Shown: one piece after another, positions 2,511 to 45,933 of the stretch | Layout: each line of letters opens with the position of its first letter | Numbering within the stretch: the first letter of the stretch is position 1 | Source of the DNA: Cyanobacteria bacterium SW_9_44_58 | Lineage (GTDB): Bacteria > Cyanobacteriota > Cyanobacteriia > Cyanobacteriales > Rubidibacteraceae | Assembly (NCBI GenBank): GCA_003021905.1 | Contig: PXPI01000066.1 | Span: forward strand, 1-47,990 | Direction: 5' to 3' | DNA length: 47,990 nt | The notes under the pieces: generated by a model | Told to the model about the DNA's origin: nothing | Seen by the model: the letters and a program-made list of their open reading frames with translations, nothing else | Database searches by the model: none | Translations under genes and position numbers: made by a program

Positions 2511-3707
2511 ATGAGTGCTGTTTCTTCCCATCATAAGGCGAAAGGGCTAGCCCCAGGTCGTCCCCGTCCCGCAAAAGCCCTTTGCAGTGAGTGTGGGTTA
2601 TGCGATACTTACTATATCCACTATGTGAAAGAAGCTTGTGCTTTCCTCAATGAGCAAATCGCAGCGCTAGAAGCTGAAGCTCATGGCCAAAGCCGAGACT
2701 TAAGTTCCGAAGATGACCTCTATTTCGGAGTTCATCAAGACATGATGGCGGCTCGCAAAAAAGCGCCCATTGAAGGCGCCCAGTGGACCGGAATTGTAAG
2801 CGCGATCGCGTGTGAAATGCTCAACCAGGGCAAAGTGGAAGGGGTAGTCTGTGTTCAAAACAGTCCCGAGGATCGCTTTCAACCTGAACCGATCATAGCG
2901 CGTACCCCCGAAGAAGTGTTAGCCGCCCGCGTCAATAAGCCCACTCTCTCCCCCAATCTCTCCATCTTAGAAGAAGTGGAACAATCCGGCTTCAAACGTC
3001 TCCTTGTGATTGGCGTTGGCTGTCAAATTCAAGCCCTGCGGGCGGTTCAAGATAAAATCGGTTTAGAAAAACTCTACGTTTTAGGAACCCCCTGCGTCGA
3101 TAATGTCACCCGGGAAGGGCTGCAGAAGTTTCTAGAAACTACCAGCAAGTCTCCCGAAACGGTGGTCAGTTATGAATTTATGCAAGACTTTCGGGTTCAC
3201 TTTAAACATGAAGACGGCAGCATTGAGAAAGTGCCCTTTTTTGGACTCAACACCAAAGAACTCAAGGATGTGTTTGCTCCCTCCTGCATGAGCTGCTTTG
3301 ACTATGTGAATTCTTTAGCTGATCTAGTGGTAGGTTACATGGGAGCGCCCTTTAGCTATCAATGGCTAGTGGTTCGCAACGATACCGGCCAAGAAATGTT
3401 AGACCTGGTGCAAGATCAACTGGAAACCCAGCCAGTGAGTTCCCAAGGCGACCGCAAAAATGCTGTGCAAAAAAGCATTCCCGCTTATGATAAAGGAGTG
3501 ACCCTTCCCATGTGGGCAGCCAGACTCATGGGCGTTGTTATTGAAAAAATCGGTCCGAAAGGCTTAGAATATGCCCGCTTCTCCATTGACTCTCACTTTA
3601 CCCGCAATTACCTGTATGTGAAGCGCAACTATCCGGAAAAATTGGACGATCATGTTCCCGAGTTTGCCAAACGAATTGTGGAACAATACGAACTGCCAAA
3701 AGAGTGA
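2511..3707 (+). CDS. bciB: Ferredoxin-dependent 3,8-divinyl chlorophyllide 8-vinyl reductase (BciB-type)
   Basis: Member of the F420-hydrogenase beta-subunit (FrhB) family. In cyanobacteria this type reduces the 8-vinyl group of divinyl chlorophyllide, using reduced ferredoxin, FAD and Fe-S clusters. The 398-residue protein opens with CSECGLC (Cys25, 28, 31), followed by the FrhB N-domain. The C-domain has GVGCQIQ (Cys171), GTPCVDN (Cys195) and PSCMSC (Cys259, 262), a cysteine set fitting two [4Fe-4S] clusters. The ATG at 2511 has no strong ribosome-binding site. The related plant 7-hydroxymethyl-chlorophyll reductase is the main alternative by homology, but cyanobacterial members are generally BciB. 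Confidence 0.88.
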   Translation: MSAVSSHHKAKGLAPGRPRPAKALCSECGLCDTYYIHYVKEACAFLNEQIAALEAEAHGQSRDLSSEDDLYFGVHQDMMAARKKAPIEGAQWTGIVSAIACEMLNQGKVEGVVCVQNSPEDRFQPEPIIARTPEEVLAARVNKPTLSPNLSILEEVEQSGFKRLLVIGVGCQIQALRAVQDKIGLEKLYVLGTPCVDNVTREGLQKFLETTSKSPETVVSYEFMQDFRVHFKHEDGSIEKVPFFGLNTKELKDVFAPSCMSCFDYVNSLADLVVGYMGAPFSYQWLVVRNDTGQEMLDLVQDQLETQPVSSQGDRKNAVQKSIPAYDKGVTLPMWAARLMGVVIEKIGPKGLEYARFSIDSHFTRNYLYVKRNYPEKLDDHVPEFAKRIVEQYELPKE

Positions 3708-3751
3708 AAAGATACACTAGAAACAAGTAAGCCCCAATAGGAGAATTGATT

Positions 3752-4072
3752 ATGAATGTTTTTGGCATTGGTTTACCAGAAATGGCTCTGATTTTAGTCA
3801 TTGCATTGCTTGTATTTGGCCCGAAAAAGTTGCCGGAAATTGGGAGCAGTCTTGGCAAAGCAATTCGAGGATTTCAAGATGCATCTCGGGAATTTGAAAA
3901 TGAATTCAAACGAGAAACCAGCAAGGCAGAAAATGCAGACAATAAAGACTCTGCTGTAAAAATGAATGCGCAACTCGAACCCAGTTCCTCGGAAGCAGAA
4001 ACGGTATCTGATGCCCAAGCCGCTGAGGAAACAACTGCCGCTCAAAATGAACAATCGAAAGTAAACAGTTAA
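3752..4072 (+). CDS. tatA: Twin-arginine translocase subunit TatA/E
   Basis: Small pore-forming subunit of the Tat pathway, which exports folded proteins across thylakoid and plasma membranes. The 106-residue protein has the canonical layout. A short N-terminal membrane helix (MNVFGIGLPEMALILVIAL) is followed by the FGPKKLPEIG hinge, then an amphipathic helix (SSLGKAIRGFQDASREF) and an acidic, disordered tail. The start is the ATG at 3752, with GGAGA just upstream; an in-frame TTG two codons earlier is less likely. It follows bciB by 44 bp and precedes a membrane J-protein. Confidence 0.92.
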   Translation: MNVFGIGLPEMALILVIALLVFGPKKLPEIGSSLGKAIRGFQDASREFENEFKRETSKAENADNKDSAVKMNAQLEPSSSEAETVSDAQAAEETTAAQNEQSKVNS

Positions 4073-4166
4073 GGGAATCCCTTGTTTGCCGAAACAAACA
4101 GGATAGATTAACCGCATTGATCAACGGATTGATGATATTTGATCAGTCACATTCAAGGAGAGAAGC

Positions 4167-39969: not shown

Positions 39970-41250
39970 TTAATTTGATGACTGTTGCGGGGATAAAACA
40001 ACCATCCCATAGGCCTCCGGAGAAAGATAGCGTTGCGCCGCTTGTTGAATGGTTTCCGGAGTTAAATTGCGGATGATTTGCGAGTAATTGATCGCGGCAT
40101 TGAGATCCCCCACTTGAGAGGCAAAATAACCGTAAAGGTTCGCGCGATCGCTGGGTTTTTCATTGGCAAAAATATAGCGGTTGGCCACTTGCGTTTGAAT
40201 GCGATTCAATTCTGAAACACGAATTGGTTCTTCCTGCAATTGTTTAATTTGTTGCTGAATTGCCGTTTCCACTTTCGCGATATTTTCCACAGGCAAACGA
40301 GCGGAAACTGAAAAATGTCCCTGCAATTTTTGGCTGGAATTAATTGCCCCCACAGCAGACACTAACTTTTCCTCTTCCCGCAATTGGCGAAACAAACGCG
40401 ATACTTTTCCTTGCCCTAAAATCGCCGCTAATACATCCAAGGGATAGGTTTCCTGCAGATCATTTAAACCGGGAACCCGCCACAACATCACTAACTGCGC
40501 TTGTTGCAACTGGGGATCTTCGTATTCCCGCCGCACAATTTCGGCAAAGGGAGGTTCCGGTGTCGGGAATGATACTGTGATCGGCGCAGGAGAATAACAC
40601 TGCGGCGCAATCTTTTCCCAAGCCGCTGTTACGGTTTCGATCAGCGTCTGGACGGGTAAATTTCCCACCGCACTCACCGTCATTGTTTCGGGATGATACC
40701 ATTGACGATGAAACTGGCGCATTTGTTCCGGTGTTACCTCAGAAATCACACTAGCCGGACCTAACACGGAACGACGATAGGGCAAGGATTGAAAACAAGT
40801 TTCCATAGCACGGGCATACGTCCGACGCATGGTATTATCTTCGCTGCGGCGGATTTCCTCCAGGACGACCTTTTTCTCCCGCATAAATTCATCTTCGGGG
40901 AGACTGGGATTGCTAACCAGTTCTAACAGGAAAGGGGCCAGTTCAGCAAAGTTTTGGGGGGCGGTGGTGATGTAATAATGCGTATAATCTTGGCTGGTGG
41001 CAGCATTCATTACTCCTCCCCGTTGTTCCACCAGTCGGTCAAATTCGCCGGGCTTCAGATTGGGCGTTCCCTTGAACATCATATGTTCTAAAAAATGAGC
41101 CATGCCGTTAATGGCATCCGGTTCCACAGCAGACCCCACTTGAAACCAAATGTTGAGGTTAACCGCTTCCACTGGCAGTTGTTCGGCGATAATGGTTAAG
41201 CCGTTATTGAGTTGATGAATTGTGGGATGATTGAGAGCAGTCGTTGTCAT
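39970..41250 (-). CDS. M16 family zinc metallopeptidase
   Basis: Processing-peptidase/pitrilysin-like protein of 426 residues. The zinc signature HFLEH is at residues 52-56, with the third ligand glutamate in the EEIRRSED segment at 131-132 (the HxxEH...E pattern). The 426-residue size is that of the half-clam-shell, single-subunit M16 form, which often pairs with a catalytically dead partner. No partner gene is adjacent. The ATG at 41250 is the first in frame. Substrate unknown. Confidence 0.92.
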   Translation of the reverse strand: MTTTALNHPTIHQLNNGLTIIAEQLPVEAVNLNIWFQVGSAVEPDAINGMAHFLEHMMFKGTPNLKPGEFDRLVEQRGGVMNAATSQDYTHYYITTAPQNFAELAPFLLELVSNPSLPEDEFMREKKVVLEEIRRSEDNTMRRTYARAMETCFQSLPYRRSVLGPASVISEVTPEQMRQFHRQWYHPETMTVSAVGNLPVQTLIETVTAAWEKIAPQCYSPAPITVSFPTPEPPFAEIVRREYEDPQLQQAQLVMLWRVPGLNDLQETYPLDVLAAILGQGKVSRLFRQLREEEKLVSAVGAINSSQKLQGHFSVSARLPVENIAKVETAIQQQIKQLQEEPIRVSELNRIQTQVANRYIFANEKPSDRANLYGYFASQVGDLNAAINYSQIIRNLTPETIQQAAQRYLSPEAYGMVVLSPQQSSN

Positions 41251-41411: not shown

Positions 41412-41588
41412 TTATTGATTGGTCCTATTTAAACGGTAAATCACCTCATTGAGTAACATGACCTGAATTTCTAAGGCTTGAGCATAATCAATGGCATTGT
41501 CGGGATTGCTTTGCAGTCCTCGCGCCACAGCCGCAATACGAGCTTGAATAGACGCTAAATCTTGCACGGGATCTTGATTGGCAAACAT
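41412..41588 (-). CDS. Small hypothetical protein
   Basis: A 58-residue helical protein (MFANQDPVQDLASIQARIAA, then ARGLQSNPDNAIDYAQALEI) with no membrane segment or motif. The ATG at 41588 is preferred; a GTG nine codons upstream extends the frame. Codon use looks coding, and its position between two genes with room for its own promoter makes it plausible. I do not recognise the family. Confidence 0.5.
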   Translation of the reverse strand: MFANQDPVQDLASIQARIAAVARGLQSNPDNAIDYAQALEIQVMLLNEVIYRLNRTNQ

Positions 41589-41679: not shown

Positions 41680-41799
41680 GAAATCTAATACAAAACTAAT
41701 AGATTTCAGCAATATTGCTTAAAAAAGCAACCAATCCAACTTGAAGCCACATTCGCTATATTAGTTACTCCCGTTCTGTTAATGTCTTGCTGACTAATA
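41680..41799. repeat. Palindromes and repeated heptamers upstream of the CyRepA-like gene
   Basis: GAAATCTA (41680-41687) and TAGATTTC (41700-41707) form a perfect 8-bp inverted repeat. Immediately after, AGCAATATTGCT is itself a palindrome, and TTGCTT/AAGCAA can pair. The heptamer ACTAATA occurs at 41695-41701 and 41793-41799, with its complement TATTAGT at 41759-41765. The region is AT-rich. Such features could be an operator for the replication gene, or iterons of an origin. No DnaA-box cluster was recognised. Confidence 0.4.
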
Positions 41800-41805
41800 T
41801 CCGAA

Positions 41806-44775
41806 ATGATCCATTGGACGCCTTTCCAGCCAGTTCCCAAGGCCAACGAGATTGCCGATGCACTGGCAACTCTCCCTTCTCATTGGAGTTTAACCCCATT
41901 GTGGGAAAAACGTCCCTATCGAGAGGGATGGCAAACGGAACCCTTTATTCCCCATGAAGAAATTGCTGCGATTTTGCGGCAAGGGGAAGAACGCATCAGC
42001 AAACGCACCGGTCACCCCTACCGTGCTTTTTGTTCCGGCTATGGGTTGCGGTTGGGAGATGTCTCCGGCGGCTTACTGGCTGTTGATATTGATGGCAGCA
42101 GTGCCCAAGATGTATTAACGGCTTTAGCAGAAACATCCCTGCCCGAGACGGTATCTTGGACTTCTGGGAAGCCGGGTCGTCGGCAACTGCTTTATCAAAT
42201 TTCGGATTCCTATCGGGAACAATTGCAATGTTTTCGCCGCAAAACCATAACCCAGTGGGAAGGGGTGACCGCAAATCCGGGAGAATTGCTGGAACTTCGA
42301 TATAATCAGCATCAATCGGTATTGCCTCCTTCTTTTCATCGGGATACAGGAGAGTATTATTGGCTTATCTCCCCAGAAGAAATTAATATCGCGATCGCGC
42401 CTGCCTGGTTATGCGAGTTTTTACTCCGCCAATGCGATTCTTCTCCAAGGAAAACCGCCGCGCCGGTATCGCGTATCCGCTCATTCTCCGGTGAGGTTAG
42501 CGGGAATCATCCCCTCAGCACGCTGTTGGAACAGGCAACGGGCAACCTAAGGACAGAACAGATTTATTATTGGCCGGGGCATCAGTTTCAGGAGTCTGGC
42601 AGCACTTGGCGCGGGTATTGTCCCCGTCACCAGTCGCAAAGCGGTACGGCGTTCACGTTAAATCCCCAAACGGGAGAATGGTATTGTTTCGGTTGCGAAA
42701 CCGGGGGAGGCGCCATTCAATATCGGCATTTCTTGCAAGGCGGCAATGGCAATCCCAGAGGACAAACGTTTCGTTCTTTGGTACATCAATTGGCAACAGA
42801 AGCCGGGGTGGATAGTGACAGTTTCCCCCCGCAGCATCATCAAACCTATCAACCCACAGACGTAATTAATCAGCCCTATTTCCATTGGGAAACCCCTCGG
42901 GAAGGAACCATGCTGGCAGTAAAGTCCAGTTTAGGCAGCGGCAAGACGACTTGGTTGGCGAAAGTTGTCTCTGAGTTGCGGGAGGAAGGTTGGTTAGCCC
43001 TGGGACATCGCAACTCTTTGTTATTGCAGTCTTGCCAACGTTGGGGATTGATTCATCTGCAAACCGAACAAGCCTTTGATTTGATCAATGTTCCCGATTC
43101 GCAGCTGGCGTTATGTGTGGATAGCTTGCACCACTTTTCTCCTGAAGCCTTTGCCGGCAAAAATATTATTCTCGATGAAGCGATCGCGATCGTTTCCCAT
43201 CTCTTGACAGGAGAAACGCTGAAACAGAAGCGAGAGGAAATTATTCAACGGTTTCGCCAAGCCTTGCAACAAGCAAAGCGCGTCATTTGTTTGGATGGAA
43301 TGCTAACCGATTGGTGCGTCAATTATCTCCATGAATTGGCGGGAACAGAACGTCCTTTGGTAAAAGTGGAAAATTGCTATCAAGGAATGCCGCTGCACAT
43401 CAAATGCTTACAGGAAAGTTGCGATGAAACCGGGAAAGGAAAACGCAACGATCGCTCTCCCTTATTGGAGCAATTATGGCAGTCTCAAAAACCGGTTATC
43501 TGTACCGATAGCCAACTGGAAGCAGAAGCCTTAGATCAACTGTTAGCGGAAACCGGAAAGCAAGGATGGCGCATCGACTCCAAAACCATTTCGCAACCGC
43601 AGATCCAAACCTTTCTCAAAGCTCCCGACGATTGCATTAAAACCGATTGTCCCGATTATTTAATTTATACCCCAGCAGCGGAAGCCGGCATTGATATTAG
43701 CATTGAAAACTATTTTAGCGATCAATTCTGTCTCTTTTTCGGCGTGCTTCAAACCAATGCCCAAGTGCAAATGATGAGTCGGGTGCGCGATCCCAAATTA
43801 ACTCGTTGGCTGTGGTGTTCCTGTTACGGACAACTCAATCAACCCCCAACCCGTTTCCAACTTCGGGAATCATTAACCGAAGCGATTAATACCTTCATTT
43901 TAAAAACCGGCACTAGCTTGCTGGAAGGAAAAGATACTTCTGCCGTTGTGGAACAATTTGTCAAGGAAGTGACCGCCGCTGCCCAAGAGATTCATCATCA
44001 AACCTTCTGTATTCTGCAAGCCATTGCCCATTATGAACAATCGCATTTATGGGACTGTTTATATCAAGCTTTAGTCAAGGCCGGCCATCATGTAGAATTA
44101 ATTTCCTTAGAAACGTCCCCGGAAGCAAAACAAAAGGAAAAATCAGCCAAAGAAGCCGTCAAACATAGCAATGCGGAAGCCATTTATTACGGCAATTGCC
44201 GTCAAGGAAAACAAGCGGCAAGCCTGCATCGGTTATTAAGAAAACAACTCCCCGGCATTGAACAAACCTCTTGTTGGGGTCCGCAATTTATCAAGCGAGT
44301 GGTCTATGACGATCGCGACTTTATTGCGAAACAGGAACGGTTTTGGTTAATCCATCATCCCGATTTAGCCCAAGACATGATGCCGTCCGCTTGGTATTCC
44401 GGAATAGGGCAACATTTGCAGCAACAATGGTCGCTGATTCAGGCCTTAATTGCCCTGGATCTTCCTCTGCTATTAAACCTGGAAACAACTTGGACCCATG
44501 ACTCCCCGCAATTGCAACGCTTACAGCAAACCCTGCAAGAGCGGGATCTGGCGTCGGTGCTGAAATTAAATCCTGATAGCAGCGCCCCCATTCCCCTGTT
44601 TCGTGAACTGTTGCGCTTGATTGGGGTGAAATTAACCCGGAAAAACGGCCGTTACCGGATTAATGCGGCTGCGTGGTATGAGCGCGATCGATTAGCCATC
44701 TTAGCTTGTTTAGATCGTCGCTGGCATACTCAGAGTTTTACCAATTTGTCAAGTTTTATCAGTCAAACTCATTAA
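41806..44775 (+). CDS. CyRepA1-like plasmid replication protein: primase-polymerase, zinc finger and SF2 helicase
   Basis: A 989-residue multidomain replication protein. Residues 70-200 look like an archaeo-eukaryotic primase-polymerase fold (VDIDG with Asp94/Asp96, then SGKPGRRQLLY). Residues 268-300 hold a CHC2-type zinc motif (Cys272, His275, Cys294, Cys297, in the DnaG-like YCPRH...CFGC form). A superfamily-2 helicase follows: Walker A GSGKT at 377-381, Walker B ILDEA with Asp457-Glu458, motif V GIDIS at 628-632 and motif VI QMMSRVR at 655-661. The order matches cyanobacterial CyRepA1-type plasmid initiators. It lies on the chromosome between core genes. The ATG at 41806 lacks a clear ribosome-binding site. 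Confidence 0.82.
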   Translation: MIHWTPFQPVPKANEIADALATLPSHWSLTPLWEKRPYREGWQTEPFIPHEEIAAILRQGEERISKRTGHPYRAFCSGYGLRLGDVSGGLLAVDIDGSSAQDVLTALAETSLPETVSWTSGKPGRRQLLYQISDSYREQLQCFRRKTITQWEGVTANPGELLELRYNQHQSVLPPSFHRDTGEYYWLISPEEINIAIAPAWLCEFLLRQCDSSPRKTAAPVSRIRSFSGEVSGNHPLSTLLEQATGNLRTEQIYYWPGHQFQESGSTWRGYCPRHQSQSGTAFTLNPQTGEWYCFGCETGGGAIQYRHFLQGGNGNPRGQTFRSLVHQLATEAGVDSDSFPPQHHQTYQPTDVINQPYFHWETPREGTMLAVKSSLGSGKTTWLAKVVSELREEGWLALGHRNSLLLQSCQRWGLIHLQTEQAFDLINVPDSQLALCVDSLHHFSPEAFAGKNIILDEAIAIVSHLLTGETLKQKREEIIQRFRQALQQAKRVICLDGMLTDWCVNYLHELAGTERPLVKVENCYQGMPLHIKCLQESCDETGKGKRNDRSPLLEQLWQSQKPVICTDSQLEAEALDQLLAETGKQGWRIDSKTISQPQIQTFLKAPDDCIKTDCPDYLIYTPAAEAGIDISIENYFSDQFCLFFGVLQTNAQVQMMSRVRDPKLTRWLWCSCYGQLNQPPTRFQLRESLTEAINTFILKTGTSLLEGKDTSAVVEQFVKEVTAAAQEIHHQTFCILQAIAHYEQSHLWDCLYQALVKAGHHVELISLETSPEAKQKEKSAKEAVKHSNAEAIYYGNCRQGKQAASLHRLLRKQLPGIEQTSCWGPQFIKRVVYDDRDFIAKQERFWLIHHPDLAQDMMPSAWYSGIGQHLQQQWSLIQALIALDLPLLLNLETTWTHDSPQLQRLQQTLQERDLASVLKLNPDSSAPIPLFRELLRLIGVKLTRKNGRYRINAAAWYERDRLAILACLDRRWHTQSFTNLSSFISQTH

Positions 44776-45255: not shown

Positions 45256-45933
45256 ATGAACTTATTTACGAATCCAGAAACTTCCTTAGAAGAAGTATTT
45301 CGCCAAATTGGGAGCAATGGCATTCCACCCGTTGTCCAAAACTTTGATCGGGGCAAGACGATCTTTTTTCCCGGTGATCCCGCAGAACGGGTTTACTTCT
45401 TGCTCACAGGAGCTGTGAAACTCTCTCGGGTTTATGAGACAGGAGAAGAGATCACTGTGGCGCTCTTGCGAGAGAATAGTATTTTTGGCGTTTTATCCTT
45501 AATTACCGGTCAACATTCCGATCGATTCTATCATGCCGTCGCCTTTACCCCGGTGCAATTGCTCTCTGCCCCCATTGAACAAGCAGAAATCGCGTTTCAG
45601 GAAAATGCTCAGTTAACGCGGCTCATGCTGCAAGGATTATCCTCCCGAATTTTACAAACGGAGATGATGATTGAAACCTTAGCCCATCGGGATATGGGAT
45701 CGCGCCTCGTGAGCTTTTTATTAATTTTGTGCCGCGATTTTGGACAACCTGCCGACCAAGGCATTCAGATTAACTTAAAATTATCTCACCAGGCCATTGC
45801 TGAAGCCATTGGTTCCACCCGCGTTACAGTAACCCGCCTCTTAGGAGAATTGCGGGACGAAGAGATGATTTCCATTCACAAGAAAAAAATTACCGTTCAT
45901 AATCCAGTCGTTCTTAGTCAACAATTTTCTTAG
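45256..45933 (+). CDS. ntcA: Global nitrogen regulator NtcA
   Basis: CRP/FNR-family transcription factor that senses 2-oxoglutarate and PipX and controls nitrogen assimilation. The 225-residue protein has a cyclic-nucleotide-type beta-barrel (30-125), a long dimer helix, and a DNA-reading helix-turn-helix (about 177-197, [20 protein letters not shown]), all typical of NtcA. The ATG at 45256 is the start. It begins a tight run with a DUF3084 protein and a YqgF-like protein, a gene order I recall from other cyanobacteria. Confidence 0.97.

Follow-up and report, generated by a model that had tools for sequence, protein, structure and literature searches.

A CyRepA1-type gene among core chromosomal genes

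The window (the whole stretch of 47,990 nucleotides analyzed here, from contig PXPI01000066.1 of Cyanobacteria bacterium SW_9_44_58) codes for a large protein of the CyRepA1 type, which we followed through nine genomes of the host's family, namely, the window genome itself (G000) and eight others (G001 to G008). We identified G002 as Euhalothece natronophila Z-M001, since part of its contig C4 matches that strain's plasmid at 100%. The features of the locus are the following:

41415 to 41588, minus strand: 58-aa ORF upstream of the CyRepA1-type gene; an ORF 59% identical to it lies upstream of the gene in G005
41680 to 41690 and 41697 to 41707: inverted repeat GAAATCTAATA/TAATAGATTTC, 11 nt, 91% complementary, unconserved in three relatives
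41752 to 41767, plus strand: promoter-like conserved box TTCGCTATATTAGTTA, 39 to 54 bp ahead of the start codon; same sequence in G005, one mismatch in G001, looser in G002
41806 to 44775, plus strand: gene of the CyRepA1-type protein (Prim-Pol, zinc ribbon, and CyRepA1 helicase), 989 aa, from the ORF, domain searches, and orthologue alignment
41863 to 42408, plus strand: Prim-Pol domain, residues 20 to 201 (PF09250, 90.3 bits, cutoff 22.8)
42586 to 42813, plus strand: DnaG-type CHC2 zinc ribbon, residues 261 to 336 (PF01807, 33.6 bits, cutoff 24.9)
42907 to 44640, plus strand: CyRepA1 helicase region, residues 368 to 945 (NCBIfam NF042913, 376.7 bits, cutoff 200)
45256 to 45933, plus strand: ntcA (named by sequence and in the original prediction), marker of the site common to G005 and G003

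The ORF begins with an ATG that aligns with the starts of its counterparts in G005, G001, and G002. The original prediction had read the protein as a primase-polymerase joined to a DnaG-type zinc finger and a helicase, and as a relative of CyRepA1; the PF09250, PF01807, and NF042913 matches bear out both points. Another Pfam match, Herpes_ori_bp at residues 364 to 516, is barely above its cutoff (24.6 bits against 20). The Prim-Pol domain has a DxD motif at residues 94 to 96, and the helicase region has GxGKT at residues 377 to 381 and DEA at 457 to 459, which we take to be Walker A-like and Walker B-like, respectively, plus an RxRD motif. D94, D96, and the three helicase motifs are invariant in all six family proteins. 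The histidine of Prim-Pol motif II is catalytic; glutamine takes its place in the six family proteins and in two of three plasmid relatives, histidine being found only in Nostoc N6 pNPM9, so that priming by the family proteins is not assured. The zinc ribbon scores above the PF01807 cutoff in the window protein and in those of G005, G001, G002, and G007, while the profile search gave no match in the G008 protein.

When compared with solved structures, the profile of the full protein matched DnaG primases only, and the Prim-Pol part alone gave one chance-level match; a structure model built from two sequences had a mean pLDDT of 34 and was set aside. A search of viral sequences found no relatives of the protein, and a search of named contigs found one distant MAG locus, in a set from which records close to the window genome were possibly excluded. 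The gene is the single full CyRepA1 copy in the 2.94-Mb assembly of G000. Another contig of this assembly (C42, 4,234 bp) has a 311-aa piece of a second CyRepA1 at positions 3392 to 4135, with 193 bits, just under the cutoff; given this truncated copy near a contig end (L002), the strain may also carry a CyRepA1 plasmid.

Upstream of the gene, an ORF on the minus strand (39970 to 41250) reads as an M16 peptidase by its sequence, as the original prediction had it, and the placement of the gene between this peptidase and ntcA held up, with both flanking ORFs named by sequence. The neighbors, including ilvC, the M16 peptidase, and ntcA, are presumably core genes. With such genes on both sides, and with the gene lying on contigs of 4.18 Mb in G001 and 3.33 Mb in G002, the window copy is not carried by a plasmid. 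No partition, mobilization, toxin-antitoxin, or integrase genes were recognized by eye among the translated ORFs of the window. The 58-aa ORF has no Pfam match and no counterpart at the gene in G001, G002, G007, or G008.

Upstream repeats and a conserved promoter-like box

The inverted repeat and the ACTAATA heptamers described directly upstream of the gene are present. Three heptamers (ACTAATA/TATTAGT), at 41695, 41759, and 41793, precede the gene, out of six in the whole window; the motif was chosen post hoc, and its clustering is therefore weak evidence. The 200 bp upstream of the gene contain three heptamers in G000, one in G005, and none in G001 and G002, and the inverted repeat and all but one of the three heptamers went undetected at the gene in these three relatives. 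The upstream strand folds better than shuffled sequences in the window genome (z-score of -2.5, with 3 of 200 shuffles equally good), and the z-scores in the three relatives (G005, G001, and G002) are -0.13, -1.24, and -0.37. The proposal that the repeats serve as an origin or operator thus finds no support, since they are not conserved in G005, G001, and G002.

Conservation upstream of the gene in the four genomes compared (G000, G005, G001, and G002) is limited to the promoter-like box, which includes the middle heptamer (41759). Its consensus, TTCGCTATA(T/G)TAGTTA, lies about equally far from the start codon in G000, G005, and G001; the form in G002 is looser. The box looks like a -10 promoter region; a sigma-70 scan reported no promoter at 41752 to 41767. 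Exact matches occur once each in G000, G001, and G005, solely before this gene, and G002 has one place at one mismatch. Near matches are below the reversed-pattern control in G000, G001, G003, and G005 and number 6 against 5 in the control in G002. Iterons, or any repeated binding site of this sequence, were ruled out, as no second exact match turned up in the five genomes searched.

Replication of pSYSA in Synechocystis sp. PCC 6803 has been shown to need CyRepA1 (Slr7037), which is both a primase and a helicase, together with the ssr7036/asRNA1 region (PMC9978351). The window has room for an RNA-controlled origin of this type, yet we found no Rfam match and no conserved upstream structure. 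Whereas pSYSA requires that region upstream, the gene copies in G001 and G002 leave no room for one and make an origin of the ssr7036/asRNA1 form impossible. In G001, the gene is separated by 101 bp from an upstream gene for a CCA-adding enzyme and overlaps a downstream homoserine dehydrogenase gene by 12 bp; in G002, the upstream spacer is 156 bp, following an ORF without a Pfam match, and the gene overlaps the downstream ORF by 4 bp. Considering the short spacers upstream (101 to 156 bp) and the lack of any downstream, the gene travels without a flanking origin.

Plasmid ancestry and vertical descent

We found full-length copies of the gene in six of the nine family genomes: G000, G005 (72% identity), G001 (71%), G002 (70%), G007 (51%), and G008 (49%). 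All six score above the NF042913 cutoff in the CyRepA1 region. The gene is absent from G003 and G006, both near-complete, and G004 (85% complete) gave only partial or weaker CyRepA1 matches. In a tree of the CyRepA1 region with 46 rows (L009, L011, and L012 were left out as duplicates and L002 as too short), the six family copies form one clade (support 100/100) whose sister is the Rep protein of the Crinalium plasmid pCRI9333.04 (97/95). This clade belongs to a group of 19 rows, the other 13 being six named plasmids, six short contigs without a known replicon, and one single-contig genome (G162). A separate clade of 17 rows (100/100) groups CyRepA1 proteins from other cyanobacteria; 13 of these rows map to a main chromosome contig.

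Like CyRepA1 of pSYSA, the window protein belongs to NF042913, over the cutoff; however, it is encoded on the chromosome, belongs to a different clade, and has a Prim-Pol domain as its primase part. Of 145 cyanobacteria, 80 have already been reported to have chromosomal CyRepA homologues, the function of which was described as awaiting validation (PMC10899382). The 17-row clade of our tree, most of whose rows are chromosomal like the window gene, is separate from the clade of that gene. The best score of the family against the CyRepA1 model is 413 bits, versus at least 502 in the 16 scored rows of the chromosomal clade; hence, the family seems to be without that CyRepA1, and the window gene appears to stem from a second capture event, independent of the first, in which a cyanobacterial chromosome acquired a plasmid-type CyRepA1.

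The alignment to CyRepA1 plasmids that the original prediction had called for gave plasmid homologues, the sister being the Crinalium one. The protein of Crinalium epipsammum pCRI9333.04 (NC_019735.1, L121) is the closest relative of the helicase half outside the family, with 36% identity in one comparison and 41% in another; it is plasmid-borne, near ParM and RelE/ParE genes, and has the zinc ribbon but no Prim-Pol match. Conversely, the best plasmid match of the Prim-Pol domain is the bifunctional primase/polymerase of the Crinalium plasmid NC_019733.1 (57.6% identity over residues 4 to 207), a plasmid that matches no other part of the window protein. That the nearest relatives lie on two different Crinalium plasmids suggests that the Prim-Pol and CyRepA1 halves have been recombined. 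The split of the two halves between NC_019735.1 and NC_019733.1 also points to Rep proteins having shuffled their domains.

The dN/dS ratio is 0.09 to 0.18 in the six same-genus pairs, with dS of 1.1 to 2.4 and hence partly saturated. The G+C content of the gene tracks that of the host, a few points over its surroundings (43 to 48% in the genus, 62% in G007 with flanks of 55 to 56%, and 68% in G008 with flanks of 64 to 65%). The pair G001 and G005 is recovered both in the gene tree and in a three-gene species tree, in which the base of the genus is unresolved. Shared descent in the gene tree, together with purifying selection, characterizes a domesticated gene, and the retention of a plasmid-type initiator as a vertically inherited chromosomal gene is well supported.

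Comparison of the site with relatives showed that it is shared only within the genus (by G005 and by a relic in G003) and loosely with G007; in G001 and G002 the gene lies elsewhere. In G005, the gene precedes ntcA in the same orientation as in the window, adjoined by a TnpB-type gene, and in G007, 7.7 kb separate the gene and ntcA. G003, of the same genus and without the gene, has three collinear pieces of it (residues 56 to 71, 181 to 199, and 208 to 249) just before ntcA, with tblastn E values of 6e-8 and 2e-7 and a blastn E value of 2e-7, compared to 0.001 for the best chance match in 51 control stretches; the G002 protein also finds the relic (tblastn, E value of 5e-5), whereas the G002 coding sequence does not (blastn). 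The gene thus probably stood before ntcA in the ancestor shared with G003 and then decayed in G003. The surroundings of ntcA showed no relic in G001, G002, G006, and G008, nor did the 3.7 kb examined of G004. The only neighbors shared among the compared loci are ntcA and the genes after it. The M16 peptidase was considered as a common neighbor of ntcA and ruled out, and an ORF that we take to be mutM-like is near the gene in G008 only.

The original prediction left a choice between an integrated plasmid relic, a resident protein, and a small element. The vertical-looking clade, purifying selection, intact frames, shared ntcA-side site, and lack of visible plasmid genes beside it in the window favor a resident protein of plasmid ancestry. 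As to what had been named as counting against that prediction, plasmid homologues do exist, while the upstream region is indeed unconserved except for one short box. The window gene has not integrated recently, nor does it form a visible origin.

Presence of dnaA and position of the origin

PF00308 detects dnaA in G000, G001, G003, G005, G006, and G007; it detects none in G002, G004, and G008, and a search with full DnaA as the query agrees for these three. G007 also has a weak second DnaA-like match (C90, 4068 to 4370, L039; 30.4 bits) with two stop codons inside. Leaving G004 out of the count for its 85% completeness, four of the eight near-complete family genomes have both genes, two have only dnaA (G003 and G006), two have only the CyRepA1-type gene (G002 and G008), and none lacks both. 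This distribution is suggestive but not significant, since, with two absences of each gene among eight genomes, 15 of 28 random draws would show zero overlap.

Within the order (Cyanobacteriales), PF00308 dnaA was undetected in 41 of 292 genomes; the 20 of them that were listed belong to nine families and include E. natronophila. Such losses seem to extend beyond the four free-living species treated in PMC7198777. Outside the family, CyRepA1 (plasmid copies counted) is above the cutoff in 10 of 18 dnaA-less genomes versus 14 of 16 selected dnaA-positive ones, all 34 being hand-picked (the former are the nonfamily genomes among the 20 listed, and the latter have one to six contigs each). CyRepA1 as a general substitute for DnaA is ruled out, as 8 of these 18 dnaA-less genomes have none over the cutoff.

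In 40 sampled 20-kb stretches of the G002 chromosome, we detected no significant skew (permutation P values of 0.74 for GC and 0.46 for CDS). The half-circle GC split is best with the origin placed at 1.065 Mb (the gene is 43 kb away), with the overall skew at chance level, and the position of the gene ranks at 0.79 among 400 test origins. A sign change beside the gene in the first 20 stretches (-0.036 at 1.012 Mb and +0.034 at 1.09 Mb) was discarded, as it fell to chance level with 40. These data neither favor nor rule out an origin near the gene. No V-shape of GC skew could be seen by eye in 13 stretches of G001. The absence of global skew in G002 matches the published picture for other cyanobacteria that replicate independently of DnaA (PMC7198777). 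The literature collection that we searched contained no paper on Euhalothece together with dnaA.

Possible role of the protein

Our favored reading, which we put forward tentatively, is that a plasmid-type replication initiator was captured by the chromosome in the ancestor of this cyanobacterial family and now works as a trans-acting primase-helicase in DnaA-independent initiation or restart. On this reading, the captured gene has since been inherited vertically like any other, has a promoter of its own, and is no longer part of an origin. Since it lies elsewhere with scarcely any flanking DNA in G001 and G002, the protein probably works in trans on target sites. From its domains and the role of CyRepA1 on pSYSA, its job is most likely at chromosomal sites, where the helicase would open the DNA and the Prim-Pol domain would lay primers at places other than oriC. 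Such a route for initiation or restart independent of DnaA, our best guess for its role, could permit the loss of DnaA.

A related possibility, although a somewhat unlikely one, is that the plasmid Rep was kept as a resident repair protein that primes beyond lesions or restarts forks that have stalled and takes no part in initiation. A Prim-Pol plus a helicase under purifying selection would suit such a task, as would the lack of a flanking origin in G001 and G002, the presence of dnaA in four of the six genomes that keep the gene, and the fact that the gene is dispensable, since G003 and G006 do without it. Against this, CyRepA1 has been described for plasmid replication (PMC9978351), and no neighbor besides ntcA and its followers is common to the compared loci. 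It is doubtful that the chromosomal Rep acts in trans on plasmids, either supplying small ones or exerting incompatibility against incoming ones. Both halves of the protein have plasmid relatives, and further CyRepA1 genes lie on other contigs of G000 (the fragment below the cutoff), G002, G004, and G005; however, two matching plasmids of G002 have a CyRepA1 of their own, matches to the conserved box are not in excess in the rest of the searched genomes (6 versus 5 in G002), and the gene is kept in G001, a single contig in which no plasmid client is therefore evident.

An integrated plasmid relic that includes its origin seems very unlikely to us. Plasmid kinship and the AT-rich, structured upstream DNA of the window genome would agree with it, but no plasmid genes were recognized beside the gene in the window, the frames are intact in six genomes with dN/dS near 0.1, and the upstream DNA is unconserved and almost absent in G001 and G002; nor would such a relic be recent, because the site is common to G005 and the G003 relic. 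Equally improbable is a gene without present function, drifting and under slow loss: two near-complete genomes lack it, and a relic is visible in one of them, but purifying selection is maintained across divergences of 48 to 72% identity.

Returning to the captured initiator, a bolder version, which we consider rather unlikely, is that chromosome replication in free-living dnaA-less cyanobacteria such as E. natronophila is started by a domesticated plasmid Rep that brings its own primase and helicase. In the laboratory, replication of S. elongatus is reported to have moved to the origin of an integrated plasmid after the loss of dnaA (PMC7198777); if this version is true, the bacterial initiator would have been replaced in nature by one of plasmid origin, similar to that case. 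For chromosome initiation in cyanobacteria that lack or ignore DnaA, the gene offers a concrete candidate, found in a family that misses dnaA in two separate branches, and the apparent second independent capture of a CyRepA1 hints at a recurring chromosomal need filled by such proteins.
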